Positions 2,520 through 35,545 of a stretch of 35,545 bases of DNA are shown here, in pieces. Source of the stretch: a virus; the IMG/VR virus record IMGVR_UViG_3300013094_000141, positions 1-35,545 of that record. One strand, 5' to 3'. Numbering within the stretch: the first letter of the stretch is position 1; every line of letters starts with the position of its first letter. The translations under genes were made by a program, and so were the position numbers. The notes beneath the pieces are model-generated. The model was not told where the DNA came from. It saw only the letters and a list, made by a program, of their open reading frames with translations, and ran no database searches.

Positions 2520-5500
2520 TTATTCACCTTCAAGTGGACTTCCATCTTCTGCTTGTAGCTCGCCGTCTGTTTCAAGTGTGATCACTAGATCGCCACCATA
2601 GTACGAATCGTCTGGTATATCTGCAGGACTTTCGCTCAAGAATCTAATTACTGGGCTATCTGTAATTTCTTGCATGCTTAATCCAGGAACTTCTTGATAT
2701 AACTGTGTACCTTGTCGTTGGAAAACAGCTAAAGCTAGATTAGGTTCCACACCGTTAACAATATTTAACCGTAATTCAGCTCGATCCACAATTTGTATAT
2801 CTTGATATGTTTGAACTATAGTGGTTCCTGTATATGCAGGAATTAATTCTTTATGAGTAATATTTGTAGAGGTTGTAACTGAAATTGATCCAGGAGTTGA
2901 TCCAGATAATACCGCATAGGAAATTACAATCAACCCGTTTCCGCCCGCACCTGTTTGTGCGGTCCCCCCAATATTTGTATTGGTTCGGTGGATGCCACCT
3001 CCACCTCCTCCGCCGGGTAAAGCTCCGTTTCCACCTTTACCGGTTGGACCATAGGAATAACTAGCATTTAACCCACTATCGCCACCACTGCCGCCACCTA
3101 TATTAATAATAGATCCTGCAATTGATGCTGTTCCAATAAAGGAATTCGTAGTTGCTGTCCCATTAACTCCATATAACCCATAACCCGAAGTACTTGGACC
3201 GTTTGGGCCGCCAGCGCCTCCGCCTCCGCCAAATTTTACTACAGCGGTGTAACCTGTTAAACTAGCAACATAGCTGGTATTTGAATTACCAGACATTGTC
3301 ATTGTAGAATGTCCAGAGCCTAATGCGCCAACATGACCGGTGCCTGGAGTTCCACTACTGCCTCCACCTCCTCCTGTAGCATATACGTAAACAGCACCAG
3401 AAGTAGATGTTGTGTCTCCAAAAATAGTAGTGCCACCATCGTTTGATGTGGCAGAAACATATTGCTGTGCAGGAGCAACCGTAGGTGTTCCAATTAATGT
3501 CCCATCACCGCCTTTTCCTACTACAAAACTTACTATAGAATTAGCAGACTGAGGAATATTAGCAATGGCCGCATATCCGCCGCCGCCGCCACCGGTGGAT
3601 CCTACAGATTCATCACCACCGGATCCACCCCCTCCCCAAATTTCAACTATATTAACAGCACTAAAATCATTAGGAAGGGTAAATGTTGTTCCAGAATTAA
3701 TATCTAATATAATAGATTTCCATTTACCAACACGAGACAGATATGGTGCAACCGTAATTGTTGTTGAACTAGTTGTTATCGCCCCAGTAGTTGTTGTTAA
3801 TGTCTTAGTGAATGTATTGCGCTGAGCATAATTGTTTGTTCCTTGAACAATATTAAATTCAGGTTGTACGATACTATCACTTGAAATTCCAATGCTGTTT
3901 GTACTTGAAGAATCAAATGTAACATTACCATCATGTTGTGTAACGTTTGACAAGTTTCCAACCAATGCACCTGTGGCTGTGAATACTGCGTATGCTTCGC
4001 CATTTGGAATTTGACTTATTGTAATTTGTGTAGTTGCTGTATAAACTGCCTTAACGTAATATAATTCAGTAGTTAATAAATTACCAAACCCGTTTCCTGT
4101 AAATGCAATAGGAGTATTTGGTACAATCCCTTTTACTGTATCGAGGTTTAAATAATTTCCATCACCAACAGTTCCGCTAACATTAACAAATGGTGTTACT
4201 ACAGTTGGTTTTAATAATTTACGTCCACCATAATATACTTCTATTGTATCTGTTTCGGCAGGTACAGGTCTTCCATATATATCATCTGTGGTATTTGCAA
4301 GATTAATATCACTTAATACATAAGTCGAAGCACCAGATGTTATAAATTTTTGTATTTTTGTACTTTCATTTACGTTGATTGTTTGATTAGCACTTTGATC
4401 TATAACTTTTGCTCCAGCATTATAGGCATTCTTAGCACCGGTACCTAATGTTCCGCGGCGTAATTGTCCTAAAATATTTCCGCTGATAGTAAAGTATTCA
4501 ATACGTTCTCCAAAGATGTAAATCACTCCGGGTAGATTTAATTGTGTATTTGGTTTAGATAATACTGAACCATCCTCAACATAAATGTAAACATCGGCCA
4601 GCTGTAGAGGTTGTGCTAGGTAAGTAGAATTTGCAGAGCTCAGGCGTTTATATCCTGTTCTACCTAAAATATCTGTAAACATTCTATAACCTAATGCCCC
4701 TATGTATGCAGATGTACTCATGCTCATAATTACTATAACGTCATTGTTAGACTGATAGTATTTAGGTAAAATTTTTACGGTAACTCCATCTGGTTCTACT
4801 GTAAAATCTATATTTGTAATTAATGTAGCGCCGTTGTATTCAACCCAAATATAATTTGTGTCAAATACAGGACGCTGAATTACATAGGTGTTAGCAGGAT
4901 TACCGTTGAACTTTTCTTTTCTAATGTGACTACCATCATGGTTGGTAAAACTAATAATTCTTATAGTATCATTTGAACTACGAGGTACGCTGATAGTTTG
5001 TGAAAGGAATAATTGATTAGCTTCTATTAGATAATCATAATTGCTATCTAATACCGTAATTGCCAATGCATCACCTGTTTTAATAACTCCGGGCGTAACT
5101 GAGATAAAGTTTTGTTGATTGTTAATTGCATTTTGTATTTTTGCAATATTTTCATCAACAATAGTCAATTGCGCATTTAGATTTGCTAAAGAATTAGTTA
5201 AAAGAGTATAGTTAGCTGTACCAGTTGATATCACCAATAGTTCGCTTTGTACATTACTAATGTCAGTAGTTAAGGTATTTCGATATGCTTGTTGTTCTAC
5301 AAAAGCTGTTGAAATATTAGAAGATTGATTTCCAAGGAAAATTTCTCCTTGGGGTTGATCCATAACATAGTCAATACCGTATTGTAACAAATCACCGTTA
5401 CGATACACTTCTAGGTGAGCTACGTCAATAATGCCTCTATTGTATTGTATTTCTTGACGAATAGAGAATTGAGTTTGTCCTTCTTCAACAATATAATAAA

Positions 5501-8500
5501 CTGTTTCAGGCGGAATTAATCTTACTCCATTGTATTCAACTATAACTTGGCTGTGATAAGGTTTTGCTGAACCCGGAGGTTGCTCTAATGTAAAAATGTT
5601 GCCTGAAGGATTTTTAATTATTTGTTCATACACTTCACTGTAGGCCTTATGTGGTTCATTAAAGAACCATGCTTGAGTAAAGTTGATTGCGGCGGGGTTG
5701 GCAATACTAATGCTCGGTTTAGCTATTGAAAGTAAGGCACGCGGTGTATCTGAACCACTGCTTTCATCGGCTGGAGTTAACATCCATCCATTGATTGCAA
5801 TAATAGCTGTATTAGGAATATATGTTTTTGCCCATTTGGTTCCATCAATTGGATGGGTAAATTGGTTATCTGTGAATAGTTGAACATGTGTAGCATCTAT
5901 AAATTTAGCAAATGATGCTCCATTTAATAGTCCTAAACCAGTATCATTAATAATCACTGCGGTGCCATCACCAGAGTTAGTTGATGTACTCAACTGTAAA
6001 GTAATTGGAGATCCGTAGTTTGTAATATTCACAATCGTAGCTGTTGTTGCCTTGGAAACAGGTAATCCATTAACAGTAACATAAACATCTTTAATGTCTG
6101 TATAGGCCGCAGAGCTTATAATATTAGTGTAAGGATTGGCATTAACATCGGCCTGCTTGTCGAGCAATCCAACTCCGCCAGTTTCAATACAGCTAATGCT
6201 TAACCAACCGGGGCCTGCTAGCGGTGTTACCAATCCTAAGTATTGATTACTAATATCAATTAGATAATCGGTACCATGATGCAATGGAGTGTTGTTTGCA
6301 ATTACAATATAAGAACTAGTATTTTGTCCTCGTGTAATTGGGAATGATTGTGTTACTCCATCTAACTGGTATCTATAAGTTTTAATTAGTGGAGAAGATT
6401 CCGGTAACTGAGTATACACGTTAATTGCAATACTATCTTGTACTTGTCCAGGAATCATTTCTTCCGGTGCATAGGCCGCATTGGCACTAATAAATGAATC
6501 ACCGTCAACTACAATTTCAGCGGGGTTAACACCTAATGTAATTGCGGGGTTGTAATCGGCACCAGATAATAATGTATCAAGACTGTACTCATCACTAGGA
6601 AGAACTGTACCATCATCTGTTATATCACGGAAAGTAACTAGGTTATCCGTAGTAGTACTAAAAGCAGTTAACGGTACAAAAATTGTGCCTGTTGAACCTG
6701 CGGCTAGTGTTATCGTGGCAGTTGTAGCTGTACTATTTGGCAATATTGTGAAATTTGTAATTCTAGTATTGTTCAAATAAGCTGTAATTGTTGCTGTAGA
6801 ATTTACAGTATAAGGAATTGGAATTTCAATTTTTCCATAACTTCTAGCAGTAATTTCTCCCAGAACACTTTGTATCTTCAACTGAACTTCTGTTAAATTA
6901 TTTTGATCTATAGACAACTGTGTTGTAACTGATGTATACTCAGGGTTACTAACTTGTTCTGGTCCGAGACCTGTATTAACAATTATTGTGCTAGGTATAG
7001 TTGGCAACAATGCATTTAGTGTTTGAATCGCACTGGCTAAAACTGCTTGTTGATTTTCTAAATCTGCCAACTCAGAATTTAAAAATACAAGTTGATTACT
7101 CTGATTGCTTTGAGGATTTAAAACTGTAGCAAAATTTGTTGTTTGTTGGAAATTATCCCAACTTGTTGACCAATAAGGTAATGTATCCCACCCGCCTGAA
7201 AAACTGTAAGGCAACGTGTCTATTTTTACTCCCGGATACTCTAAGCCACTCATTAGTAATGTACCGGTATTGCCTGGCATACCACTTGTTGGCTCATAGT
7301 AATCTTGCATTCTATCAAACGCATTATAAAGTTCAATATGTTTAGGATAGATAATTTTTACTAAAACATCAGGTGCTGGGATAGTAGATAAAACTAATAT
7401 TGCCAATTTCTGTTTATAGTGAGCCATTGGATATGTGGTAGTATCTACAACATTGTATTCAATTGAGTAAGAATCAACTAATTGAAAAACTCCATTTACA
7501 TATAAACTAATTTGTGCTTTATCTGGTGTAGGAACCCATGTTAACGGAAAATGGTAAGTTACACCGTCTCCATAAAACACATCCTGATATTTGCGGGTAT
7601 AACCTACCGACGAATCATTAGGAAAGTTTGGTAATCCAATTTCTCTACCTTTTGAAATTCTATCAAATTTAATTTCAACTTTAGTTGATCTAACTAGATC
7701 ATTATAAAGTTGTGCATATACTCTTGCAGGTGTATTTGCACCTCCACCGCCTTGTAGTATAACGGTAGGTGTAGCAGAATATCCGCTTCCGCCGTTTGTT
7801 ACTTCAATACTAGAAATACTACCTTTAGAAATATAAGCTACTGCTGTAGCTCCTTTACCCGGATCTCCAGCGGCAGGAATGATAGTAACTGTTGGAGGAT
7901 TAGTATACCCACTACCTGGGTCAGAAATTATAATTTCTCCCACAGAATATGAATAATTTTGGAACCATGTTTTCCAAGGTTGTAATGTTAGCTGGCTGTT
8001 TCCAAATCCAACTGTTCTGAATCTTGTTTGTAATGAATCCCAATATGCCGGTAAATCATAATCGCCAATAAATGTAGAACTTACATCTGTACTTGTATAA
8101 TTTACTGTAAAATTACGAATTTTTGTGTGGTATGGTTTAACTTCGTTAATATAGTCTTCATAAAAACTACTGTCTTGAAGTTTGTATGTAGGACGTTGAT
8201 CTAGAGCACCAGCATGATTTGTAACTCCAATAAACGCAGTTTTAAATGCCCAATCTAAATTCTTTTGTTCGCTTAACGCATATTTTACTGCTTTTAAGAA
8301 TGTTAAATTCCAATATACCGCAAGGTCGTTTATAAACAGATCATCCTTAACAGATATTAAAATATTTCTTAGTTCTTCATCCGCTGATTGGTCCCATTCT
8401 GTTTGGTCAAACGCCGTTATTTCATCAAATGCATATGGATCATTTTTTAATGACCATAAAGTACTTAAGAATTGAATAGTTCCGTTTTCGCTAACCATTA

Positions 8501-11500
8501 CGTCCCAATTAGGACTAAATGTTCCTGTAGTTGTTCCGGGAGGAGTTCTACGTAAAATTAAATATCTTCCATCTCCTGAATTTTTTACTTTAACATAATT
8601 GCCTTCTGGAATAGATAATAAAATATCTAATTCATAGGTAGAGTCAACTGTAGCAACAACTGGTTGCAATGAATTATATGTTGGATCATACCAATTTGTA
8701 TATTTCCAGTATTGTGAAGTATCGTAAGATTGTGTTCTTATCTTAATCCAGTTAGACAGTTTAGCATTCCATTGATATATAGCCCATTGATTAAGACTAT
8801 CTGTATCTACCAACACCACCACACAGAATGGTCTTATTGACGCTGTGGTCCCGGGTGTATATCCAGAACCTGGATTAATTATTTTATAACCAATAACTTC
8901 ACCGAGTGCATTGCAGATTGCTTGAGCAACTGCTCCGGTTCCCTTGCCATTAATTGTAATATAAGGAGGATTTGATGAACTATATCCCGAACCAGGATTG
9001 CCTATTTTTAATCCTTCAATTGCACCATTAGAACTTACTAAGACAGACGATATTGTTGCCTGCTCAAAATATTTTGTATCTATTTGATTTAATGAATATA
9101 AATCTTCTACTACTTGATCATATAAAGATAATGACGTAGATGGCAATGGTTCTTTTGCACTAATATTTGCAAAATTTTTAATTCCTGTAGTTAGATTTAC
9201 AGCCAACACACTATTGATATATTCAAATATATTTGCAAGAGCAGATAATCTGTTTACAAACAGACTTTGACGAGGTAATACTGTTACGCCATATTGTAAT
9301 CTGTTAGGTAGTGTTGGGTCCGGAACTTGGTTACCGACGCTATCTGTTCCTACCAAGCTGTCAATTAATTTTCTTGACAACATAGTATTTGGTAGACTTG
9401 TGGGATTACCTTCTTCAATTAATAACCATTCTGTATGACGAGGAACTGTGTTACCAATTGAATCCATTTCAACATGTAGATGAATTTGATCTGAAATCAA
9501 ATCAGGTTTAAGATTTACTAGTGCTATACTATCTGGTGCTTGGAAAGTAATATACTTAACACCCTGTGCGCTAGGATTAGCGATCAGTTGCGCTGTAGAA
9601 TATGCACTAATTTGTCTTGTTGGAATATTAGGAACTATTGTTTTATTTTTTACCCAATAATAATAAACATTAGTAAATGCATTGGTTATTGCATTATAAA
9701 CTTGTTTGACCGAAACTACACTATTATCAGGGAACTTAGGTTGTCCGCTAATTCCTTCCGATAATCCGTCGGGTGTATCTGCCAGCGATGCCCACTGGCT
9801 TGGTAGATAATGTGTACCTACCCATTCGTAAACATCAATTGTGCTTCCTGGGAACATACCGTTCCAGTTATTTTTACGATAATCTGCATTACCTTGTTCG
9901 TACCACACAAATTTTACAGTAGATAGATCCCACCATAGTTCACCTACGTGGTCGTCGATCCAGTTAATATTACTATTAACTACAACACCACTTACACCTA
10001 AACTGTAAACAGCAGGGTCAAACATTGTTTTGTAAGATAATTCTTGATCAGCTTCGCCTGAGATTTTTCCTTTCACAGGATCAATTATTTCTAAATAATC
10101 TTTTACTTGCTCAGTAAAATCATTTAGTGTATATGCACGATTAATTCTTGTTAAATCAATCATGTCAGTTTGTTCTCTTAATTTTTGCCAAGATTTAACT
10201 GTTGTGTCATTTTCAGCAAAAATAACTATTTCTCCACCTTCGTGTCCATTAAAATCAATGACTCCAGGTGCACCGACAACAATAGCAGAATCTGTAATGA
10301 TTGTAGAGGTTCCAAACTTAGGAAGATCAGCAGAGCTAGCTGGAATTAATTCTTGTCCAAATGCAAATTTAGTATTAAATCTATTATATACAAAAGCATT
10401 ACCTGAATCATTAACAGATGAATAAATTTTTGTTGAATTTGAATCAAACGTAGTTGGATTTGGTCGAAGAGGAGATGTATCATCTAGTTGATATGCAACT
10501 CCGCCAATTTTAGCTTGTGTGTATGTATCAAATGTTGCACGAGAACCTAAAATTGTACCTGATGATGAAATGACTAAAGTATCAGCCGTTGCATCCATAG
10601 AAATAAATGACCCAAAATCTCCGGTGTCACTCAAGTTTGGAATTCTAATGTCTTGCAATGGAACATATACTCCATTTGTAAGAGTCGCAATAACTACTGC
10701 ACCCGTAGCGCCGATTAAATTAGATGTAGCATTAGGAACTGTTATAGCTAGATAACTTCCGTCTGCCGACATTACTACTTGTGTACCTATTTGATGATTT
10801 GTGGTAAAATAAGGTCCTGTTGGATTAGAAGGGGTACCATACCCTAACGCATTATTAATATCTGCCGCTTGGATGACTTGTACACCTGTATATTCTCCGT
10901 TCGCATATTGATAGATTGCAACTGCACCTGTGTCATTTGCATAACCAGGAGCACCAACCGCTACATAACTTAAATCAGCGGATCCAGAAATATTATTACC
11001 AAATTTTGATCCAGCACCAAATGTAATTGAATTTATTGTAGTTGGTAATGTTGTAGTTGCAGGAACTGTTACCGTTGTAGTTGTTCCTGTAGTAACATTG
11101 AATACATAAACATTATGTTCTCCAGGAGCTCCAACTAATACCCTCGGTGAAGACTGTTGCTGTACTGCGATTGAAGTTCCAAATAATCCGCTGTTAACTG
11201 GATTGCCGCTAGCCAATACTGCAACTGTAACTGGTGTTGGGACCAAATTAATTATTTGTACTGTGTTAATTTTAACTAGGCCAGTATTATCAATTGAGTG
11301 TTGAGTAGATCCGGCTACTCCTGCAAATGTAGGCTGTCCGCTAACTATTTTCAAGAATGGATAGCTGACTCCTGGGGCTCCAACAAATATCAAATTATCA
11401 ATGGGCTCATATGCTATGCTTGTTCCAAAATTTGCAGGAATATTAGAATCATAATAAGTGTTTGAATCATTTAATCCGTAGCTGACTATTGAATCTAATT

Positions 11501-14500
11501 CTACAGATCTAATAGATGGTTTATTGTAAACAAACACTCGACCAACGTCCGGATGTGGGTCTGTATCTGTTGCCGCATTTTGATATGTTATTGCTCCAAC
11601 AATATAATAATTAGATCCAGGAGCCCAGGATATAGTAGAACCAAAATTTTGATCGGCTGTTAAAGAAAGATTATTTGCAAACGAAGACGATGTAAAATTA
11701 TTAGCCTTTTGGAAAACTGCCCATTTACCTGTGCCGTCATCATCGACCCATACAGTTTCTCCAATACCTGCTTTTTCTAATACTGGAAATTTTGTAACAT
11801 CATCAAAATTTGACAATCTTGCTGATACAAAATTAAACATTAATCCTACAGGAATTTCTATAGGTACAGGAATTGAACTTAAGGTTGTTGCAACTGTAAA
11901 TTGATTGTATGTAGGAATTTGATAAACAATGTAAACTTGATCCAATGCTTCATTATAACGAGTAACACTTACTAAATCTCCTACATTTAGATTATGAGGA
12001 ATATCTGTTGTAAATGTAACTAATTTATTGATTGGATCTGTGATACCGGCCGCAACCACCTTTGAAGGCATTACAGAATATCGCAACACATCCCAGCTAC
12101 CATTTTCAGCAAAGCCAACCCAAATTGTATCACCTTCTTGTAAATTTTTATTATTGGCAATATCTAAAATACTGTTCTTATTATACGCCGTGGCAGTAAC
12201 ATCATCGTATCTAGGATATCCTGCCATAGGCAATACGATAGAATTAACTTGATATGTGCTAGTTGTAGTAGGAAAGGCAGTAGCAGACGAATAGTTGTCT
12301 GGTTTTATTAAAACAGCATTTGGTGTTTTATAATATGTAAGATTATTTGGACTTACAGGCAGAGTGTCGACAAATTGTATTACTTGTGGATTTTCTCCGA
12401 ATGATGTTTCATCTAAAGTTATTTCAATCTCTTGAAGAGTTTCAAAACCGCCAAATGTGCCAACACGGAACGCCCATGTTTCATTGTAAGTTACTTCACC
12501 TTTTAAATTATGAACGCTGGCTTTGATTAATTTGTCAATAGCATTCTTTGTTCCTTTTTCTTTAATATAACCTTGATAAAATTTATATTGTGCAATAGGA
12601 TCATCAAAGATGTTATCCAAATAAGGACGAGGACTATAACCTGTTAAATGTTGTGCCATGGCTTGCACACCGGCATCAAAATTATCAATATTTAGGCTAT
12701 AGAAATCTTCAAACTGATTAATTTTATAATCAAAGTTTGGAAGCAATTTTGCTGTTGGTTTACTTGGTAGTGTATCCCAATTTGTAAAATCAAATGTTGT
12801 GGTACCAGTTAATGGAATATTTGTAAAATAATATTTGCCAGCGTATCTTACGGTAGAACCTGCACCATAGTCTGTGTATTGTGCCCAGTCTTGAATCTGT
12901 GCGTCATCGTACACAAATCCAGGACTAAAGAAATCACCATTCCAATTTGCAGTTCTAAAACCGCTTACGTGAATTCGACGTTGTCTATATCCAGATTCAA
13001 TATCATATATAATATCATTAAACAAACTTCTATTGTTAAACACCAAGGCATGTTCTTTTTGTATTGTACTAAATTCAACAAAGAATAAACCTTCAGTGGT
13101 GTTTACTGTACTAATTGTAAACACGTTGTCTTGTCGTTGTAATCCAAGACTATGCGGAGGGAACGGAGATCCGTCTGCTTTTAATACACTATACTCATAA
13201 AACGCATTGTTTAGATCATCAACAACTCCGCCAATCATGTTAAATGACAATTGATCAGCAAAAGGACTTACTGTAATAATTGAATCATCAACCCAATTTT
13301 GCGTACTCCAGTATAAAAATTCTTTTCCAGAAAATTTCCAATCTAGTGTTTGATTTAAATCTGGCTGGACTTCATTAAATGTAAATCCTTGTGTTGTTAG
13401 ATATTTTCCGTATCCAACAAATAAATTATAAACTTCTTGTACCGTAGCATAAGATGTGCCGTAAGGAACAAGTGTAACATCAGACTCAAACACTCTAGGA
13501 TCATACACAGTAACCCCGCCAATCACCGGAAGAGATTTTAATTGGTTCCAATTTGCTCCTGTAAATGTACCACCTGCGGTATGCGCCAAGACACATCTAT
13601 AATATATGTTAGCATAAGATGCAATCACTCCTGTTTGATAAAATGCACCCGGAGTCCATGTTAGATAAGGCTCACTACGACCACCAACATTTACAACGTT
13701 ATCTGCTGTTGTAGGAAGAGGATTGTATATTGGAAAATATGGTCTTGTTTTATCATATCCTCTAACTGTAAATCCTATTTCAGTTTTTTGAACAATAACT
13801 CCAGAAACAGAATAGGTAGCGGTTGGATTGCTTTTATTAAAATAGATAGAATAATCTTCTGATGGTAGTAATACTCCAGGATTAGAACTGGTAGGATCAA
13901 CTGCATCAATAATAATTTGTAATTTGTCTTTGCTTACAAATCCACCAACTTTTGCAAATAAGTTATAGTTTATATTAGATAGATCTGTCTGTAGAGTATC
14001 AAGGTATGTATAATTTCCTTGGCGTTTAGCTTCAACTAAAAACACGCTGTATCCAGATGCTAAAATTCTATTTCCATCGCTGTCTAGCGTATTTGGGACT
14101 AGAATTGAATCAAATTGTAAGAATGTTTTGTTAGATCCATAACGATATTGCCCTGCAAGATTTTTTACCAATCTTGATGTGTCCCACATCAATGACGCAT
14201 ACAACGCTGGTTTGGCTAGTGCCAACATAATCTGAACAGCAAACGGATAAAGACTGCTACGTCTCCACGCTGTTTCAGCAGGGCCTTGATCACCAAACAC
14301 CCAATCTTGTTCAATTAAAATATTGTTAATTGTGCTAGGCGCAATAATTCCTATATCAGTTACGTCACGTAAATTTCCACTGTCGTCTACAGGAATGATG
14401 TTTAACAGTCCAGGACGGACATACAACGGATCAACTCCTGCTCTCAAACCTTGTTGTATTGTACCTGTAGCCAGATCATTCCATAAAATTAAATTTCCAG

Positions 14501-17500
14501 AAGTATACGGTGCCGGACCATATACACTAGTCCACCAGTCTGGTTCTTCACTAAAGCCTAACATTTCCCAAGGACATGTATGAGGGCGATCAGTATCATA
14601 AAAATGTTTGTATATTCCTCTCCAATAGCCTGGCACTGGTAGCTTGAATAATGTGTCTATTCCTTCTGGTCTGTAGTTAAATGTAAACGGCATTGTAATG
14701 TCAGTCACTGTATTAGACTGATAATCAATTCCAAAAAATCCGGCCCATCTTAAAAATTCAGGAACTAATAATGTGTTGATATCAAATGGACTATATTCAT
14801 TATTTCTAAATGCGCCTGGCAATACCCGATTGATATCTATAAAATCTTGATTGTAAGATACTTTAATATTGTTGTAGACCCGTGTTTCAAATTCTAAAAG
14901 AATTGCATCTCTAAAATCACCATACGCAACAGTGATACTACCATCGTGTCCTTGTATTACTTGAGTAGGAACAGTATACGTATTATCAACATAAATTGAT
15001 GGAATGAATTTTGGATATAATCCTAATTTAGTAGGCGTAGGTGGAACGTAGCTTCCAACGGTGCTGGTATAGTCTTTAATAATAATAACATCGCCCGCAG
15101 TTAATCCAATAGAAAAATCAACAACTGCAACCACTTGATCAAAAGTATAATCTCTGCCAACAACTAATTGTGTGCCGTTGAGGTAAACTAAAACAGTTCG
15201 TTCACTTAATACATTATTATTAAACTCTGAAGAAATTGAATATCTTGTTATTCTATAATCAGTAACTGTATATGTTCGGGTTGAAACATCTGATCCGAAT
15301 GGTAACATATCAGAATACGCATAGGGGAATGAGCTATTTTTTCCATTTGTCATTGTAGCCATTACTAAATCTAATGCGGCTGAAGGAGCATACGTTCCTT
15401 TTAATTCTGTTATTATTTTGATCAAAGCAAGTTTAAAAGAATGATATTGATCGGAAGTTTTTCTAATAGCGTCAATTAAATTGTGCTCTTTAACTCCGAT
15501 AAACATTTGAGCAAAGCTCAAAGGAGTTTCATGAGAAATTAATCGTGTTCCATAATTTGATATATTCCCAATATCTCTTAAATTGCTATCTCCAGGAAAT
15601 ACTCCAGAAAACGTAGGGCAGTTATCTGTGATAGATTTTACATGATCTGAAATTTCAGCCAGAGTAAATTGTTCTATTGAAGAGTTTAATGGGTTGTTTG
15701 TTGCACCTAAAGCAATTTCATAATACCCAGTAGCGTTGGGAGGAGTTGAAGTGTATATCTTAAAAGTTACTCGATCATTAATGTTCAATGTTGATGTAAA
15801 AAATACAAAATATTGAGGTCCTTGTGTAAGGAATCTATAATCTGTTGCAAATATTTTCTTAACATTGTTAACAAAAACATCAACTTTAATGTCTGAGATA
15901 TACCCAGGAGTATCAAGGGCTGTAATTTCAATAGTATTAGTTGCCGTTGTTAATACTTGAAATTGTATAATTGGAATATTAATGTTAGAACTTAATTCCC
16001 ATGTTGTAACATATTCTTCAGTAGGATAATTAAATTTTAAATAATATTGTTGTGTGTTATATACTCCTGTTGTAATGCCTTCTACAATAACAAAAGTATC
16101 TGTTTGAAAATAATTAGTGAATAGATAATCACCAACATTATTAACATTTAGGTATTCCAACGGAAAACCTAACACGCTATCTGGTGCACCGGTTCCAACA
16201 GAATATCCAAATATTCTAGTACCGGTAAATGTGCCACGATAAACAGATGTATCACCAAAACTTACTCCGCTTTTATCAAACACATCAAACAACGGAAATT
16301 GATTTAAACTTGTTTTTTCTTGTGCCGTATGCCATGTAGATCCATCAAACCACCAATTTTTTCCAGCATTAATTTCGCCGCGAAGGACAGCTACTCCTGC
16401 ATTTGTTACAGGAATCCAATCTTCTGTAGGCACTAAAGAAATAACCTGCAATCCATTTATACTTACAAAATCAACTAGATATACTCTTCCTCGAACTAGT
16501 GGATCATTATCGTTGTTAAAAATTACACGATACCCTGGTTGCAATAATTCGCTATCTACGTAATAACCAGGTGTACCTTCAACTTCTGTAAATGCATTTG
16601 CGGTAATATTGTCAATTAGATCAATAGGAGCAATCTCAGTAGACCCGTAATTAAATAATTGTAAATTTGGTTTGAACTCAACTATTGGACGATTCGCACG
16701 TTGATTCTGTGGAAACACTGGAATAACATTATTTGCCTCGGCAGTTGCAATTATAACATCTGCATGAAACCAGCGATTGTATCTAGACCAAGCATTACCG
16801 TCAAGACTACTTTTATTGATTGTGATATATTCTGGAGTAAACGGAATATTACTAAAATTATCAAACGGATATTCATCAAAGTTAGTACCATCAAAGTTGA
16901 CATCTAAATTTGTTGTTGCAATTCCTGCATTTTGTAAAGTACTCCAGTCAGTTAATGTAATTGCAGTTCCAACTCCTTCAACAATCCATTCTTTATCAAT
17001 ATAAGAAGCAGGAGTTATCATTCCGCTAAAACGAATTTTCATTCCGTTAGTAAGTGTAATTCCATTTCCTGATTGATAGTTTACTTTTCCAACTATTTCA
17101 TTTACAACATCAAGTTTAGAATTTTCATCTAAGTTTTCTACTATAAATCTACCAGCTATTGTGCTATCATCTCCTGCAACATAAAATAATGTAGATGGAG
17201 TTGTTGCATCAACTGTTAGTATAATCTGACCACTAGAAATACCATTATTGCTGGCATTAAAATATGCATCTTGTGCCGAAGGGCTTACTGCTGTTTTAAT
17301 CCAAAATTTATGTTTACTACTTACATTGAAAACGTAAGTCATTCCTCGATATAATGTAACCAATGGATCCGGTGTTACACCATCAGGTGTAAAAATGAAT
17401 ATCTCTTTTGTTGGATCATCTGTAACTGCATAAGTGCTAACTGTAGAAAGTACAGGTCCTGTAATTTCAATTGCATCAGGGCCAGTTGGCAACCAATAGT

Positions 17501-17942
17501 ATTGGTTGAAATTTACAAATTTATCCCAATCGATATATGGATTATAAGAGTAAGTTTTAGACTCAAATAATCTATTATGATTACTAGTAACTCCAGTTTC
17601 AAAAGCGATCTGATTTATTAAGTCATCGTATCCAACTGTTGTTTTTATATTTTGTTGTGCATCTCTAATTAATAATGCTGGTTCTAATTGATAATCTGCT
17701 TCTAATCCGTTTGATGCAGGGATGTATTGATCAGTTGCCGGATTGTAATTTGGACTTAGTGTACTTCCAATGAAACCACTAATACGTTCAATTTTTGCAG
17801 GCTGTATTAATTGATCTAACGTGCTAGTTAAGAATCCTGTATTTTTATCTGTTCTTAAATAGGTTGGTAATAGATCAACAGTACGTCGAGTATCTGATGG
17901 ATTTGCAATGTCTACTACATTTATAATTTCATTATTTGCCAT
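2520..17942 (-). CDS. Giant virion structural protein (5140 aa), probable peripheral baseplate protein
   Basis: One uninterrupted frame encodes 5140 residues, about five times T4 gp7 (1032 aa). The ATG at 17942 lies 2 bases after the gp6 stop. Residues 1-160 hold a region with LPTYLRTDKNTGFL and YIDWDKFVNFNQYYWLP, of a type I recall from large structural proteins of marine T4-like phages. Then come a cupredoxin-like domain (about 178-268), a long mixed region, seven FG-GAP-like repeats (about 2095-2577), two pairs of PGSGY beta repeats (about 2977-3034 and 3336-3408), coiled coils near 3620-3700 and 4214-4280, an LRRGTLGTG segment near 4500, and a glycine-rich domain (4761-5010). No signal peptide or membrane span is visible. 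Its place after 53, 27-like, 5, 25 and 6 suggests a wedge or peripheral baseplate protein taking over roles of T4 gp7-gp10; this is inferred from position, not from recognisable similarity to those proteins. Confidence 0.85.
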   Translation of the reverse strand: MANNEIINVVDIANPSDTRRTVDLLPTYLRTDKNTGFLTSTLDQLIQPAKIERISGFIGSTLSPNYNPATDQYIPASNGLEADYQLEPALLIRDAQQNIKTTVGYDDLINQIAFETGVTSNHNRLFESKTYSYNPYIDWDKFVNFNQYYWLPTGPDAIEITGPVLSTVSTYAVTDDPTKEIFIFTPDGVTPDPLVTLYRGMTYVFNVSSKHKFWIKTAVSPSAQDAYFNASNNGISSGQIILTVDATTPSTLFYVAGDDSTIAGRFIVENLDENSKLDVVNEIVGKVNYQSGNGITLTNGMKIRFSGMITPASYIDKEWIVEGVGTAITLTDWSTLQNAGIATTNLDVNFDGTNFDEYPFDNFSNIPFTPEYITINKSSLDGNAWSRYNRWFHADVIIATAEANNVIPVFPQNQRANRPIVEFKPNLQLFNYGSTEIAPIDLIDNITANAFTEVEGTPGYYVDSELLQPGYRVIFNNDNDPLVRGRVYLVDFVSINGLQVISLVPTEDWIPVTNAGVAVLRGEINAGKNWWFDGSTWHTAQEKTSLNQFPLFDVFDKSGVSFGDTSVYRGTFTGTRIFGYSVGTGAPDSVLGFPLEYLNVNNVGDYLFTNYFQTDTFVIVEGITTGVYNTQQYYLKFNYPTEEYVTTWELSSNINIPIIQFQVLTTATNTIEITALDTPGYISDIKVDVFVNNVKKIFATDYRFLTQGPQYFVFFTSTLNINDRVTFKIYTSTPPNATGYYEIALGATNNPLNSSIEQFTLAEISDHVKSITDNCPTFSGVFPGDSNLRDIGNISNYGTRLISHETPLSFAQMFIGVKEHNLIDAIRKTSDQYHSFKLALIKIITELKGTYAPSAALDLVMATMTNGKNSSFPYAYSDMLPFGSDVSTRTYTVTDYRITRYSISSEFNNNVLSERTVLVYLNGTQLVVGRDYTFDQVVAVVDFSIGLTAGDVIIIKDYTSTVGSYVPPTPTKLGLYPKFIPSIYVDNTYTVPTQVIQGHDGSITVAYGDFRDAILLEFETRVYNNIKVSYNQDFIDINRVLPGAFRNNEYSPFDINTLLVPEFLRWAGFFGIDYQSNTVTDITMPFTFNYRPEGIDTLFKLPVPGYWRGIYKHFYDTDRPHTCPWEMLGFSEEPDWWTSVYGPAPYTSGNLILWNDLATGTIQQGLRAGVDPLYVRPGLLNIIPVDDSGNLRDVTDIGIIAPSTINNILIEQDWVFGDQGPAETAWRRSSLYPFAVQIMLALAKPALYASLMWDTSRLVKNLAGQYRYGSNKTFLQFDSILVPNTLDSDGNRILASGYSVFLVEAKRQGNYTYLDTLQTDLSNINYNLFAKVGGFVSKDKLQIIIDAVDPTSSNPGVLLPSEDYSIYFNKSNPTATYSVSGVIVQKTEIGFTVRGYDKTRPYFPIYNPLPTTADNVVNVGGRSEPYLTWTPGAFYQTGVIASYANIYYRCVLAHTAGGTFTGANWNQLKSLPVIGGVTVYDPRVFESDVTLVPYGTSYATVQEVYNLFVGYGKYLTTQGFTFNEVQPDLNQTLDWKFSGKEFLYWSTQNWVDDSIITVSPFADQLSFNMIGGVVDDLNNAFYEYSVLKADGSPFPPHSLGLQRQDNVFTISTVNTTEGLFFVEFSTIQKEHALVFNNRSLFNDIIYDIESGYRQRRIHVSGFRTANWNGDFFSPGFVYDDAQIQDWAQYTDYGAGSTVRYAGKYYFTNIPLTGTTTFDFTNWDTLPSKPTAKLLPNFDYKINQFEDFYSLNIDNFDAGVQAMAQHLTGYSPRPYLDNIFDDPIAQYKFYQGYIKEKGTKNAIDKLIKASVHNLKGEVTYNETWAFRVGTFGGFETLQEIEITLDETSFGENPQVIQFVDTLPVSPNNLTYYKTPNAVLIKPDNYSSATAFPTTTSTYQVNSIVLPMAGYPRYDDVTATAYNKNSILDIANNKNLQEGDTIWVGFAENGSWDVLRYSVMPSKVVAAGITDPINKLVTFTTDIPHNLNVGDLVSVTRYNEALDQVYIVYQIPTYNQFTVATTLSSIPVPIEIPVGLMFNFVSARLSNFDDVTKFPVLEKAGIGETVWVDDDGTGKWAVFQKANNFTSSSFANNLSLTADQNFGSTISWAPGSNYYIVGAITYQNAATDTDPHPDVGRVFVYNKPSIRSVELDSIVSYGLNDSNTYYDSNIPANFGTSIAYEPIDNLIFVGAPGVSYPFLKIVSGQPTFAGVAGSTQHSIDNTGLVKINTVQIINLVPTPVTVAVLASGNPVNSGLFGTSIAVQQQSSPRVLVGAPGEHNVYVFNVTTGTTTTVTVPATTTLPTTINSITFGAGSKFGNNISGSADLSYVAVGAPGYANDTGAVAIYQYANGEYTGVQVIQAADINNALGYGTPSNPTGPYFTTNHQIGTQVVMSADGSYLAITVPNATSNLIGATGAVVIATLTNGVYVPLQDIRIPNLSDTGDFGSFISMDATADTLVISSSGTILGSRATFDTYTQAKIGGVAYQLDDTSPLRPNPTTFDSNSTKIYSSVNDSGNAFVYNRFNTKFAFGQELIPASSADLPKFGTSTIITDSAIVVGAPGVIDFNGHEGGEIVIFAENDTTVKSWQKLREQTDMIDLTRINRAYTLNDFTEQVKDYLEIIDPVKGKISGEADQELSYKTMFDPAVYSLGVSGVVVNSNINWIDDHVGELWWDLSTVKFVWYEQGNADYRKNNWNGMFPGSTIDVYEWVGTHYLPSQWASLADTPDGLSEGISGQPKFPDNSVVSVKQVYNAITNAFTNVYYYWVKNKTIVPNIPTRQISAYSTAQLIANPSAQGVKYITFQAPDSIALVNLKPDLISDQIHLHVEMDSIGNTVPRHTEWLLIEEGNPTSLPNTMLSRKLIDSLVGTDSVGNQVPDPTLPNRLQYGVTVLPRQSLFVNRLSALANIFEYINSVLAVNLTTGIKNFANISAKEPLPSTSLSLYDQVVEDLYSLNQIDTKYFEQATISSVLVSSNGAIEGLKIGNPGSGYSSSNPPYITINGKGTGAVAQAICNALGEVIGYKIINPGSGYTPGTTASIRPFCVVVLVDTDSLNQWAIYQWNAKLSNWIKIRTQSYDTSQYWKYTNWYDPTYNSLQPVVATVDSTYELDILLSIPEGNYVKVKNSGDGRYLILRRTPPGTTTGTFSPNWDVMVSENGTIQFLSTLWSLKNDPYAFDEITAFDQTEWDQSADEELRNILISVKDDLFINDLAVYWNLTFLKAVKYALSEQKNLDWAFKTAFIGVTNHAGALDQRPTYKLQDSSFYEDYINEVKPYHTKIRNFTVNYTSTDVSSTFIGDYDLPAYWDSLQTRFRTVGFGNSQLTLQPWKTWFQNYSYSVGEIIISDPGSGYTNPPTVTIIPAAGDPGKGATAVAYISKGSISSIEVTNGGSGYSATPTVILQGGGGANTPARVYAQLYNDLVRSTKVEIKFDRISKGREIGLPNFPNDSSVGYTRKYQDVFYGDGVTYHFPLTWVPTPDKAQISLYVNGVFQLVDSYSIEYNVVDTTTYPMAHYKQKLAILVLSTIPAPDVLVKIIYPKHIELYNAFDRMQDYYEPTSGMPGNTGTLLMSGLEYPGVKIDTLPYSFSGGWDTLPYWSTSWDNFQQTTNFATVLNPQSNQSNQLVFLNSELADLENQQAVLASAIQTLNALLPTIPSTIIVNTGLGPEQVSNPEYTSVTTQLSIDQNNLTEVQLKIQSVLGEITARSYGKIEIPIPYTVNSTATITAYLNNTRITNFTILPNSTATTATITLAAGSTGTIFVPLTAFSTTTDNLVTFRDITDDGTVLPSDEYSLDTLLSGADYNPAITLGVNPAEIVVDGDSFISANAAYAPEEMIPGQVQDSIAINVYTQLPESSPLIKTYRYQLDGVTQSFPITRGQNTSSYIVIANNTPLHHGTDYLIDISNQYLGLVTPLAGPGWLSISCIETGGVGLLDKQADVNANPYTNIISSAAYTDIKDVYVTVNGLPVSKATTATIVNITNYGSPITLQLSTSTNSGDGTAVIINDTGLGLLNGASFAKFIDATHVQLFTDNQFTHPIDGTKWAKTYIPNTAIIAINGWMLTPADESSGSDTPRALLSIAKPSISIANPAAINFTQAWFFNEPHKAYSEVYEQIIKNPSGNIFTLEQPPGSAKPYHSQVIVEYNGVRLIPPETVYYIVEEGQTQFSIRQEIQYNRGIIDVAHLEVYRNGDLLQYGIDYVMDQPQGEIFLGNQSSNISTAFVEQQAYRNTLTTDISNVQSELLVISTGTANYTLLTNSLANLNAQLTIVDENIAKIQNAINNQQNFISVTPGVIKTGDALAITVLDSNYDYLIEANQLFLSQTISVPRSSNDTIRIISFTNHDGSHIRKEKFNGNPANTYVIQRPVFDTNYIWVEYNGATLITNIDFTVEPDGVTVKILPKYYQSNNDVIVIMSMSTSAYIGALGYRMFTDILGRTGYKRLSSANSTYLAQPLQLADVYIYVEDGSVLSKPNTQLNLPGVIYIFGERIEYFTISGNILGQLRRGTLGTGAKNAYNAGAKVIDQSANQTINVNESTKIQKFITSGASTYVLSDINLANTTDDIYGRPVPAETDTIEVYYGGRKLLKPTVVTPFVNVSGTVGDGNYLNLDTVKGIVPNTPIAFTGNGFGNLLTTELYYVKAVYTATTQITISQIPNGEAYAVFTATGALVGNLSNVTQHDGNVTFDSSSTNSIGISSDSIVQPEFNIVQGTNNYAQRNTFTKTLTTTTGAITTSSTTITVAPYLSRVGKWKSIILDINSGTTFTLPNDFSAVNIVEIWGGGGSGGDESVGSTGGGGGGYAAIANIPQSANSIVSFVVGKGGDGTLIGTPTVAPAQQYVSATSNDGGTTIFGDTTSTSGAVYVYATGGGGGSSGTPGTGHVGALGSGHSTMTMSGNSNTSYVASLTGYTAVVKFGGGGGAGGPNGPSTSGYGLYGVNGTATTNSFIGTASIAGSIINIGGGSGGDSGLNASYSYGPTGKGGNGALPGGGGGGGIHRTNTNIGGTAQTGAGGNGLIVISYAVLSGSTPGSISVTTSTNITHKELIPAYTGTTIVQTYQDIQIVDRAELRLNIVNGVEPNLALAVFQRQGTQLYQEVPGLSMQEITDSPVIRFLSESPADIPDDSYYGGDLVITLETDGELQAEDGSPLEGE
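2913..3662 (-). other. Glycine-rich adhesin-like domain at the C-terminus of the giant protein
   Basis: Residues 4761-5010 begin with VEIWGGGGSGG and end with GGNGLIVISYA. Between them are several runs of four to seven glycines separated by short variable loops. This start and end, with glycine-run layers, is typical of the glycine-rich domains in phage tail proteins and adhesins, where polyglycine strands stack and the loops between them bind receptors. About 130 residues follow it to the C-terminus. Confidence 0.7.
10212..11660 (-). other. Seven FG-GAP-like repeats, predicted beta-propeller in the giant protein
   Basis: Seven units of about 70 residues each carry an (F/I)G-x-x-(I/V) strand and a later hydrophobic strand, often ending VGAPG: NFGSTISW (F2100), NFGTSIAYEP, LFGTSIAV, KFGNNISG, QIGTQVVMSADG, DFGSFISMDA and KFGTSTIITD. 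VGAPG follows in units 2, 3, 4 and 7 and is degenerate in units 1, 5 and 6. Most units then have a strand such as GRVFVY, NVYVF, GAVAIY or GEIVIF. The order FG...GAP...strand is that of integrin-alpha FG-GAP blades, and seven units match a closed propeller. The canonical calcium loop is not clear. Confidence 0.7.
17139..17411 (-). other. Degenerate cupredoxin-like domain near the N-terminus of the giant protein
   Basis: Residues about 178-268 align by eye with the domain in the fibre protein: GMTYVFNV, KHKFWIKT (His211), YFNASNNGISSG, then LFYVAGDDSTIAGRFIV. His211 sits at the first ligand position, but the Cys-His-Met loop is replaced by AGDDSTI, so this copy should not bind type 1 copper. 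Confidence 0.55.
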
Positions 17943-33872: not shown

Positions 33873-34096
33873 TGCTAAACAAGTATAAGGATCTTCACAG
33901 TCAACATATTGACTTACTTGTAGAATACTATAACATACATCAAGCGTATGTTAGAAAACCTACATATGAAAGATCCATACTTCTACGTAACATATTAACA
34001 AAATTACATAGAATGAACAAAGCCTTAAAAGATGAAATTCAAATAGTCCGTAAACAAATGGAAGAAGAAAGAAGATTAAAAAAGGAGGCGCAATGA
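33872..34096 (+). CDS. Small charged coiled-coil protein, unknown function (74 aa)
   Basis: The ATG overlaps the gp46 stop (TAATG), so expression is probably coupled to gp46. The protein is helical throughout: DLHSQHIDLLVEYYNIHQ, then a basic stretch and a C-terminal charged helix EIQIVRKQMEEERRLKKEAQ. It has no membrane span or known motif. The 3' end carries the AAGGAGG ribosome site for the next gene, and the two overlap at ATGA. I do not recognise a family; a nuclease accessory role is only suggested by position. Confidence 0.75.
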   Translation: MLNKYKDLHSQHIDLLVEYYNIHQAYVRKPTYERSILLRNILTKLHRMNKALKDEIQIVRKQMEEERRLKKEAQ

Positions 34097-34287
34097 GCGC
34101 AACAATTCAAGCAATTAAAGATGCTGTTACAGCATGGGAAGCAGAAGACACTAAATTTGAAAAAGGTAATTCAGCCGCAGGTACTCGTGCCCGTAAGGCA
34201 TTAGCCGAAGTAGGTAAGTTAATCAAAGCTCGCCGCAACGAAATTACAGAAACTAAAAATGCTCGTAAGGAGGCCAAGACTGCTTAA
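34093..34287 (+). CDS. Small histone Hc1-like protein (64 aa)
   Basis: The sequence around FEKGNSAAGTRARKALAEVG and KLIKARRNEITETKNARK resembles the conserved domain of the bacterial histone H1-like Hc1 family, where an F-x-KGN-x-AAGTR-x-RK core is followed by a basic helix. The Hc1 domain is here almost the whole protein, without the long Lys/Ala tail of chlamydial Hc1. A DNA-associated role is suggested by the family and the basic C-terminal half, not shown. It has a strong AAGGAGG ribosome site and overlaps both neighbours, so it is made with the recombination genes. Confidence 0.65.
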   Translation: MSATIQAIKDAVTAWEAEDTKFEKGNSAAGTRARKALAEVGKLIKARRNEITETKNARKEAKTA

Positions 34288-34730
34288 TGTCTTGGACTTA
34301 TCAAGGTACAATCGTTGAAGAACTACCTGAGGACTGTGTTGGATTTGTTTATCTTATCACGAACACAGTCACTGGGCGCATGTATGTTGGCAAAAAATTA
34401 GCCAAGTTTGCAAGAACAACATACAAAACAGTAAAATTAAAAAACGGCAAGAAGAAACGTAAGAAAATTAAAGGCAAAATAGATTCTGACTGGAAAACAT
34501 ATTACGGATCCAGTCCTAACCTAACAGCAGACATACAAACATTAGGCACAGACAAATTTACACGTGAAATATTACATTATTGCACATCAAAGGCCCTTAC
34601 ATCATATCTAGAAGCAAAAGAACAATTTGATCGCAAAGTACTAGAATCGCACGACTACTATAACGGGCACATCCAAGTTAGAGTTCACGGCTCTCATATT
34701 CTCAAAACTCAGGCAACTAAAACAGTATAA
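34287..34730 (+). CDS. SegE-like GIY-YIG endonuclease (147 aa)
   Basis: The GIY-YIG signature is present as G19-F-V-Y22 and Y33-V-G35, with Arg43 and Glu109 (YLEAKEQF) as candidate catalytic residues. A very basic insert (KNGKKKRKKIKGK, from residue 52) separates the signature from WKTYYGSSPNL, an arrangement I associate with SegE-type GIY-YIG proteins of T4-like phages. It may be a free-standing homing endonuclease or a domesticated phage nuclease. It is translated from a TAATG overlap with the Hc1-like gene and ends the plus-strand operon. The region after it is non-coding and structured. Confidence 0.8.
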   Translation: MSWTYQGTIVEELPEDCVGFVYLITNTVTGRMYVGKKLAKFARTTYKTVKLKNGKKKRKKIKGKIDSDWKTYYGSSPNLTADIQTLGTDKFTREILHYCTSKALTSYLEAKEQFDRKVLESHDYYNGHIQVRVHGSHILKTQATKTV

Positions 34731-34734
34731 GCTA

Positions 34735-35060
34735 GCACAGGCTAACATCGTGTGCCCACGCCAACTCGATAATAAGAGGGACGGAATTCTCTGCGCTGTA
34801 CAGAGTACTCAACTACTATCCTTAACAGGACGTCGATCGCAATTTGCCGCGGTTTAGTTGTTTGAATAGAGTGAAAAAGAGCTAAAAGAGGGTTAGAAGC
34901 CCGTGGTTGTAGTGTAAGATTGCATTTGCGCTAGAACCTGCCGTCATAATAAGACATAGCTAGGGGTACAGGATGACCGCCTCGGTAACGCTATAATGCA
35001 ATGTGACTTGTCGAACTCAGATAATGTCCAATTCTTAGCCCAATCTGGGCTAAGTGTGAC
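34735..35060 (+). ncRNA. Candidate structured non-coding RNA
   Basis: Bases 34731-35000 have no credible frame and about 47% GC by hand count, clearly above the AT-rich genes on both sides. Possible stems: CTCTG/CAGAG (34789-34793 with 34801-34805), ATTGCAT/ATGCAAT (34919-34925 with 34996-35002) with GCG/CGC inside (34928-34930 with 34989-34991), ACCG/CGGT (34976-34979 with 34983-34986), CCTG/CAGG (34937-34940 with 34969-34972), and a 9-bp CTTAGCCCA/TGGGCTAAG hairpin (35034-35054). No tRNA cloverleaf, tmRNA end or RNase P core was found. The strand is assumed from the flanking genes, and the ends are approximate. Confidence 0.4.
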
Positions 35061-35165
35061 CATAGAATCTAGATAATATATAACTGCTTCGCAGTATTAT
35101 AGTTGTCAATAATTAAAGAAATAGCTTCAAGCGATAGCGCAGAAGCAAGTGAACGCAGTTCACTT
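35034..35165. other. Four compact hairpins in the intergenic region
   Basis: In order: CTTAGCCCA/TGGGCTAAG with loop ATC (35034-35054); ACTGC/GCAGT with loop TTC (35083-35095); GCTTC/GAAGC enclosing GCG/CGC (35124-35146); and AAGTGAAC/GTTCACTT with loop GCA (35147-35165). All arms are perfect and three have three-base loops. No run of T follows any of them on either strand, so they are not standard intrinsic terminators. They could stabilise a 3' end, mark processing or bind a protein. The remaining sequence to 35228 is AT-rich and holds nothing else I can name except a late-box-like word. Confidence 0.7.
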
Positions 35166-35188
35166 ATCATATTAAAATCACTTTTCGT

Positions 35189-35196
35189 GTTAAATA
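35189..35196 (+). promoter_or_regulatory. Possible late promoter box
   Basis: GTTAAATA, containing the TAAATA core of T4-type late promoters, lies 32 bases before the start codon of the gene cut by the right edge. The word is short and AT-rich, so chance occurrence is possible. Confidence 0.3.
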
Positions 35197-35228
35197 AACT
35201 TATCAAATACCTGTAATGGAGTCACTAA

Positions 35229-35545
35229 ATGCGTATAAATGAATTATTTGAATCTCAACAATTAGAGGAAGGTCCTGGTTGGGATCAAGCTAAACAAGGC
35301 CTTGGACAAGTTGGTCAAGGAGCCATGAATGTTGCCAAAGGAGCCGCTAAAGGAGCTCCAGGTGTTATTGGTGGATTAGGTAAAGCCGCTGGTGCAGTTG
35401 CAGGTGGTGCTTTAGGTGCATGGGACAAAGCTAAACAGGGATTTCAAGCAGGACGTAATGCTGTAGGTGGCAATGCTGTTCCGCAAAAAGGTGGTGCACC
35501 TGCACAAGGTAATGCACCCGCAGGTAATGCCGCTCCGGCACAAGG
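35229..35545 (+). CDS. Gly/Ala-rich protein of unknown function, 3' end outside window
   Basis: The frame is open for 105 codons from ATG 35229, with GGAG 8 bases upstream, to the window edge. The N-terminus MRINELFESQQLEEG is followed by a Gly/Ala/Lys-rich helical stretch (GAMNVAKGAAKGAPG, GGLGKAAGAVAGGALG) and then Asn/Ala/Pro/Gln repeats (GNAPAGNAAPAQ). LFE-S and LEE-G fit the (L/I)-x-E cleavage pattern of the T4 prohead protease, so the N-terminus could be a capsid-targeting peptide of an internal or head protein; this is speculative. No family is recognised. Confidence 0.75.
   Translation, partial: MRINELFESQQLEEGPGWDQAKQGLGQVGQGAMNVAKGAAKGAPGVIGGLGKAAGAVAGGALGAWDKAKQGFQAGRNAVGGNAVPQKGGAPAQGNAPAGNAAPAQ

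Follow-up and report, generated by a model that had tools for sequence, protein, structure and literature searches.

Polynucleobacter-1 (RF01718) is listed in the table of Weinberg et al (2010; PMC2864571) with 'y' both as an RNA and as cis-reg. Other large and ornate RNAs, GOLLD, ROOL, and OLE, are of unknown function, and some are phage- or metagenome-associated (PMC12286853). The window analysed here, positions 1 to 35,545 of IMG/VR virus record IMGVR_UViG_3300013094_000141, contains a single Rfam match above cut-off, Polynucleobacter-1 at 34730-34863 (90 bits, gathering 37, E 3.8e-18), with an alignment that spans the full model, positions 1-141. Although this segment covers the whole 141-position model, the RNA at our locus starts ~8 nt earlier, runs ~230 nt further, and has pseudoknots outside the model. 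Moreover, the context found here is a phage and not a bacterial chromosome. The family took its name from Polynucleobacter genomes. Like GOLLD, ROOL, and OLE, the RNA is large and intricate, but it measures ~375 nt and lacks an Rfam match to them. Our best overall explanation, to which we give a probability of about one half, is one folded ~375-nt RNA of T4-like phages, whose 3′ domain is kin to cow-rumen-2 (RF02947) and which would act in trans as a scaffold with two sites. The RNA and its neighbouring gene are placed as follows:

34287-34730, plus strand: gene of a SegE-like GIY-YIG endonuclease, 147 aa (Pfam PF19835, E 1.5e-33)
~34722-35095 (ends approximate), plus strand: whole noncoding RNA, from conservation in at least ~100 relatives
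34730-34863, plus strand: 5′ domain, the Polynucleobacter-1 RNA (RF01718), model 1-141, 90 bits
34899-35028, plus strand: 3′ domain, distantly cow-rumen-2-like, covariance model R1 (113.8 bits, the window itself being among the sequences that built R1)

The first-pass annotation had singled out positions 34731-35060 as about 300 gene-free bases of raised GC (about 47%) that might hold a conserved, possibly undescribed RNA. The gap is genuine, with no open reading frame of at least 50 aa in 34731-35228, between position 34730, where the 147-aa gene stops, and the next start at 35229. GC amounts to 0.464 in 34731-35060 and 0.371 in the window (46% vs 37%), a level attained in just 1.7% of 330-nt windows. 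The single sequence folds moderately better than its dinucleotide shuffles (z = −2.24; 2 of 100 shuffles equal it). Since z is only −2.24, folding by itself would be weak evidence, and the reality of the RNA is settled by the covariation in relatives described below. ARAGORN and Rfam detected neither tRNA nor tmRNA, as the annotation had anticipated. It had likewise discounted RNase P RNA and a group I intron, and a permissive Rfam scan of the stretch (E up to 10) agrees: it returned nothing beyond RF01718, RF02947, and one RF02843 match that we attribute to chance; GOLLD, ROOL, and OLE are without a match there too. The proposed Rfam search thus recovered a known family for one part only (34730-34863). 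Because these first 134 bases are a member of RF01718, far above its cut-off, "undescribed" is wrong for them, while it holds for the other ~230 nt, which reach no Rfam family at its own cut-off. The boundaries were nearly right: the RNA appears to begin ~8 nt earlier, at 34722, and to end at ~35095.

Relatives were retrieved from IMG/VR with a pattern built on the RF01718 family core, yielding at least 119 stretches, of which four loci (L136, L186, L188, and L238) were read and dismissed as chance matches. Among the matches listed, the relatives share a further conserved ~230 nt 3′ of the family core. This part is as conserved as the modelled one, and conservation and covariation continue to ~35095, past the RF01718 model of ~141 nt. 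A second scan used a motif of the 3′ tail alone; in contigs picked for tail-like context, RF01718 scored over its cut-off in 14 of 18 checked, these 18 including three already known RF01718 contigs. Nearly all relatives carry one copy per contig, in contigs of up to 400 kb. One 145,656-base contig (G027; L378, L379) holds two diverged full-length copies, in which all four of the words described below read AGATGAG. No credible match to the RNA was found by BLAST among INPHARED phages and PLSDB plasmids, and no credible relative by the exact-pattern scan of GTDB genomes, where the single match lies in coding sequence on reading and is due to chance. Four loci (L021, L027, L070, and L071) combine the same 3′ domain with a different, yet also conserved, 5′ domain, recognized in L071 by reading and an RF02947 scan. 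In two others (L009 and L094), an extra hairpin is inserted, CTCTG..AAA..AGATACAAC.

Comparison across these relatives resolves the following elements within the RNA:

34722-34725, plus strand: pseudoknot strand ACAG, partner CTGT at 34796-34799; absent from the Rfam structure, 99% of cells paired
34796-34799, plus strand: CTGT in the loop of hairpin 34789-34805, partner ACAG at 34722-34725; from alignment and mutual information
34730-34743, plus strand: 3-bp helix 34730-34732/34741-34743, crossing 34735-34739/34751-34755; 89.9% of cells paired
34735-34755, plus strand: helix GCACA/TGTGC; 99.2% paired, four of five pairs changed on both sides
34810-34860, plus strand: long-range helix CAACT/AGTTG enclosing hairpin 34835-34854; 100% paired, three double-changed pairs
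34890-34902, plus strand: variable hairpin with a GNRA loop in many relatives, read from alignments
34905-34938, plus strand: hairpin with its loop ATTGCAT (34919-34925) engaged in a pseudoknot with ATGCAAT (34996-35002); 98.8% paired, six of seven pairs double-changed
34943-34977, plus strand: second 3′-domain pseudoknot, GTCAT (34943-34947) with ATGAC (34973-34977); 99.6% paired, three of five pairs double-changed
34956-34994, plus strand: helix ATAGC/GCTAT enclosing 34963-34966/34980-34983, from the 3′ half alignment
35015-35025, plus strand: word 1, ACTC-AGATAAT (7-mer 35019-35025), equal to word 2 in 81 of 82 relatives
35034-35054, plus strand: terminal hairpin CTTAGCCC/GGGCTAAG between word 1 and word 2, conserved in the alignment
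35067-35077, plus strand: word 2, ATCT-AGATAAT (7-mer 35071-35077), equal to word 1 in 81 of 82 relatives
35083-35095, plus strand: small hairpin ACTGCTTCGCAGT, likely the 3′ end or a terminator; terminator-like scan match on both strands

The covariance analysis proposed at the outset strongly supports a conserved structured RNA, with both halves covarying in the relatives. In the alignment of the 5′ half (53 sequences), 95.3% of cells are paired and covariation reaches 0.341 vs 0.141 ± 0.006 in shuffles; the corresponding values for the 3′ half (49 sequences) are 91.4% and 0.474 vs 0.176 ± 0.010. None of 500 shuffles attains the score of either half. When partners were slid as a control, covariation was at most 0.061 (5′ half) and 0.134 (3′ half), a lead that is partly built in, as the scored sequences also served to draw the structures. 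This does not apply to the pairs in which both partners changed, namely 16 of 35 in the 5′ half and 22 of 29 in the 3′ half, nor to the ranking by mutual information, at the top of which Watson-Crick pairs predominate; neither is a product of the way the structures were derived.

Individual elements differ in their support. The pseudoknot ACRG/CYGU has a single varying pair (A-U in 29, G-C in 24), and the small fourth pseudoknot (34730-34743) is more weakly supported, with one pair changed on both sides. Hairpin 34905-34938 has only 75% of cells paired in the plain alignment, which we ascribe to a register shift between groups. Its loop pseudoknot recurs in relatives as a TTAGCGT-type loop with AACGCTAA, again with six of seven pairs double-changed, and the second 3′-domain pseudoknot as CCGTYRT with AYRAC. 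TTCG hairpins similar to ACTGCTTCGCAGT occupy the same place in relatives. At ~34819 and ~34831 (positions 103 and 115 in L145), U/C and C/U swap together in 35 and 23 sequences without forming a standard pair, possibly reflecting a non-standard contact. A candidate CsrA site (CAGGATG in the window) was rejected: it is not conserved in relatives, and its bases sit in a pseudoknot. Taken together, extent and structure make us nearly certain that this is one intricately folded phage RNA of ~375 nt, of which Polynucleobacter-1 is the 5′ third only. On this comparative reading, the limits of RF01718 need correcting, with its membership unaffected.

The 3′ domain is very likely homologous to cow-rumen-2, a relationship that the E-value does not prove. 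In the window, RF02947 scores 24.2 bits at 34906-35003 (E 0.039). As this lies below the cut-off of 66, the domain is a probable relative of cow-rumen-2 and not a member. Of 28 contigs from this group, 22 have a match at the expected place and strand, either just 3′ of the Polynucleobacter-1 segment or on the 3′ motif, in no case above cut-off and with E-values up to 0.9 in some contigs; eight of the 28 are not independent, having been fetched by the motif GGTACAGGATGACC, which is common to the RF02947 model. About half or more of the 22 matches are full-length, and the others cover only approximately positions 60-82, the ACAGGATGACC core. In the reverse test, the new 3′ model gave nine weak matches on rumen phages, six of them on cow-rumen-2 places. 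The order of parts is also alike: a hairpin with a TAGC-like loop, CCGYC, the GTACNGGAYRACC hairpin, and a terminal hairpin, which in part of the cow-rumen-2 copies lies between two repeated words. In contrast, cow-rumen-2 has another 5′ domain, several copies per jumbo phage genome, and a Bacteroidota-type promoter box.

RF02947 marks 24 places across 14 rumen records, as many as four of them on a single 424-kb contig, while RF01718 was not found over cut-off in the rumen phage records. The rumen copies occupy gene-free gaps of their own (~400 nt). Upstream, TAnn[T/A]TTG occurs in 23 of 36 distinct copies vs 4% of control pieces, in most cases 29-32 nt ahead of the first conserved box; we take it to resemble the −7 box of Bacteroidota promoters. 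Ten rumen jumbo phage contigs of 411-424 kb (L255, L257, L261, L270, L288, L291, L303, L305, L312, and L315) hold three or four copies each, which differ in sequence and neighbours within a genome. In other contigs, some copies adjoin gp46/gp47 homologues (L260, L265, and L275), and others precede a gene that resembles the 284-aa gene located close to the RNA in this group.

Judged by synteny, the RNA has a fixed genome place in T4-like phages, at the end of a gp55-gp47-gp46-nuclease cluster. In the window, gp55-like, gp47-like, and gp46-like genes are followed by two small genes, the SegE-like nuclease gene, and then the RNA, whose first pairing segment is overlapped by the last codons of the nuclease gene. 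The following counts, all among the matches listed, still contain the four chance loci: of the 77 contigs that extend far enough, 74 have gp46 upstream in the same orientation; the nuclease encoded directly upstream is of the GIY-YIG type in 89 and of the PDDEXK_15 type in 15; the gene-free gap around the RNA has a median of 482 nt; and the downstream gene is convergent in 53 of 90 and co-directional in 37 of 90. With so many convergent neighbours, the RNA is not generally a 5′ UTR. Nor is it tied to the nuclease, since Methylophilales phage Melnitz-3 has the SegE gene followed by a 148-nt gap without resemblance to the RNA. In the window, the sequence immediately preceding the RNA shows no visible promoter, and the RNA may therefore be processed out of the upstream operon's message. 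By eye, the second copy in G027 (L086, L379) has a sigma-70-like promoter upstream, TTGACT-17-TATACT. Elsewhere in the window, a small gene just before the nuclease gene (34093-34287) matches histone H1-like Hc1 (PF07432, E 1.4e-14), and the minus strand of 2520-17942 is a single open reading frame of 5140 aa.

Words 1 and 2 are the same 7-mer within each RNA in 81 of 82 distinct relatives, retrieved with a pattern that required NNATRAN per word and thereby fixed three letters, limited a fourth, and left the others free. The 82-relative set contains eight word types, to which L073 adds GGAAAG in both words. When mapped on a tree built from the remainder of the RNA, the words changed 24-25 times, jointly in all but one case; for their first letter, ten of ten independent pairs agree (p 0.002). 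The gp46 tree gives 17-18 word changes, and eight of eight pairs agree (p 0.008). The flanks remain different, ACTC vs ATCT, which speaks against plain gene conversion of the words. Neither a third copy nor a reverse complement was found at a fixed place within ~1.5 kb upstream or ~2 kb downstream. Some of the rumen copies share this feature, with different words (CAGAT, CAGAA, CAGGT, and CGGAA, by eye), and others are without it.

Several interpretations of the words were discarded. Ribosome hopping is known from T4 gene 60; however, the identity of the words extends past the codon in a codon-plus-stop reading, and L073 is at odds with it. DNA sites of a regulator are contradicted by the lack of enrichment near the locus of the RNA. 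Encoding per genome fails in multi-copy rumen phages, whose words differ between copies; the two G027 copies agree in their words, but the stretch is nearly identical in both. The coupled words probably mark a binding site.

How the RNA acts can be weighed against this background. We tentatively favour, at somewhat less than even odds, a free-standing, trans-acting RNA that would serve as a structural scaffold and bind two copies of the same partner at the identical words flanking the terminal hairpin. The trans-acting reading is preferred for the fixed place, the gap of its own, the often convergent neighbour, the exchangeable nuclease, and the dense structure, and the coupling of the words speaks for one partner contacted twice. 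We infer that this putative partner is probably a protein, which we rate likelier than a second RNA. The differing words between copies of one rumen phage genome fit poorly with a single genome-wide partner. The words could also be two identical seeds with which a trans-acting small RNA pairs with phage or host RNA: they are short, lie in or near unpaired stretches, are almost always identical, and have no complement in cis. We consider this improbable, as a seed aimed at a conserved target would hardly be expected to exist in eight or nine types over close relatives, and the conservation of the RNA resides mostly in its folded core.

No likelier is a cis-acting element, either a 3′ UTR stabilizer or terminator of the nuclease operon or a leader of the downstream gene. 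Polynucleobacter-1 is reportedly regarded as probably cis-regulatory from the columns of the 2010 table, and its 'y' there counts in favour of this alternative, as do the overlap of the first pairing strand with the nuclease stop codon region and the same-strand downstream genes. Against this, most downstream genes are convergent, the RNA remains when the upstream nuclease is of the other type (GIY-YIG or PDDEXK), the structure far exceeds the needs of a terminator, and one phage has a second, paralogous copy elsewhere behind the sigma-70-like promoter. Least plausible of all is a catalytic or intron-like RNA with the identical words as two cleavage or splice sites. The size, several pseudoknots, many invariant unpaired bases, two identical sites, and an adjoining GIY-YIG nuclease are reminiscent of such elements, yet there is no interrupted gene, no internal guide covarying with the words, and no match to an Rfam intron or ribozyme family, and the nuclease is replaceable by another type.

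What emerges greatly extends known orphan families and joins them; it does not amount to a new class of RNA. We consider it possible, with the balance leaning against it, that the two families, Polynucleobacter-1 and cow-rumen-2, both belong to a single widespread class of large phage RNA. Such an RNA would act as a machine in its own right in T4-like and jumbo phages, and its word coupling, in which two sites are made to remain alike without pairing, would be undescribed for an RNA of this kind. Two catalogue entries without function, listed as unrelated, would merge into a large phage RNA whose limits, position, structure, and phage hosts are known. Joined into one defined RNA, they offer definite constructs and phages to test, and the coupled words make the question of the partner testable.
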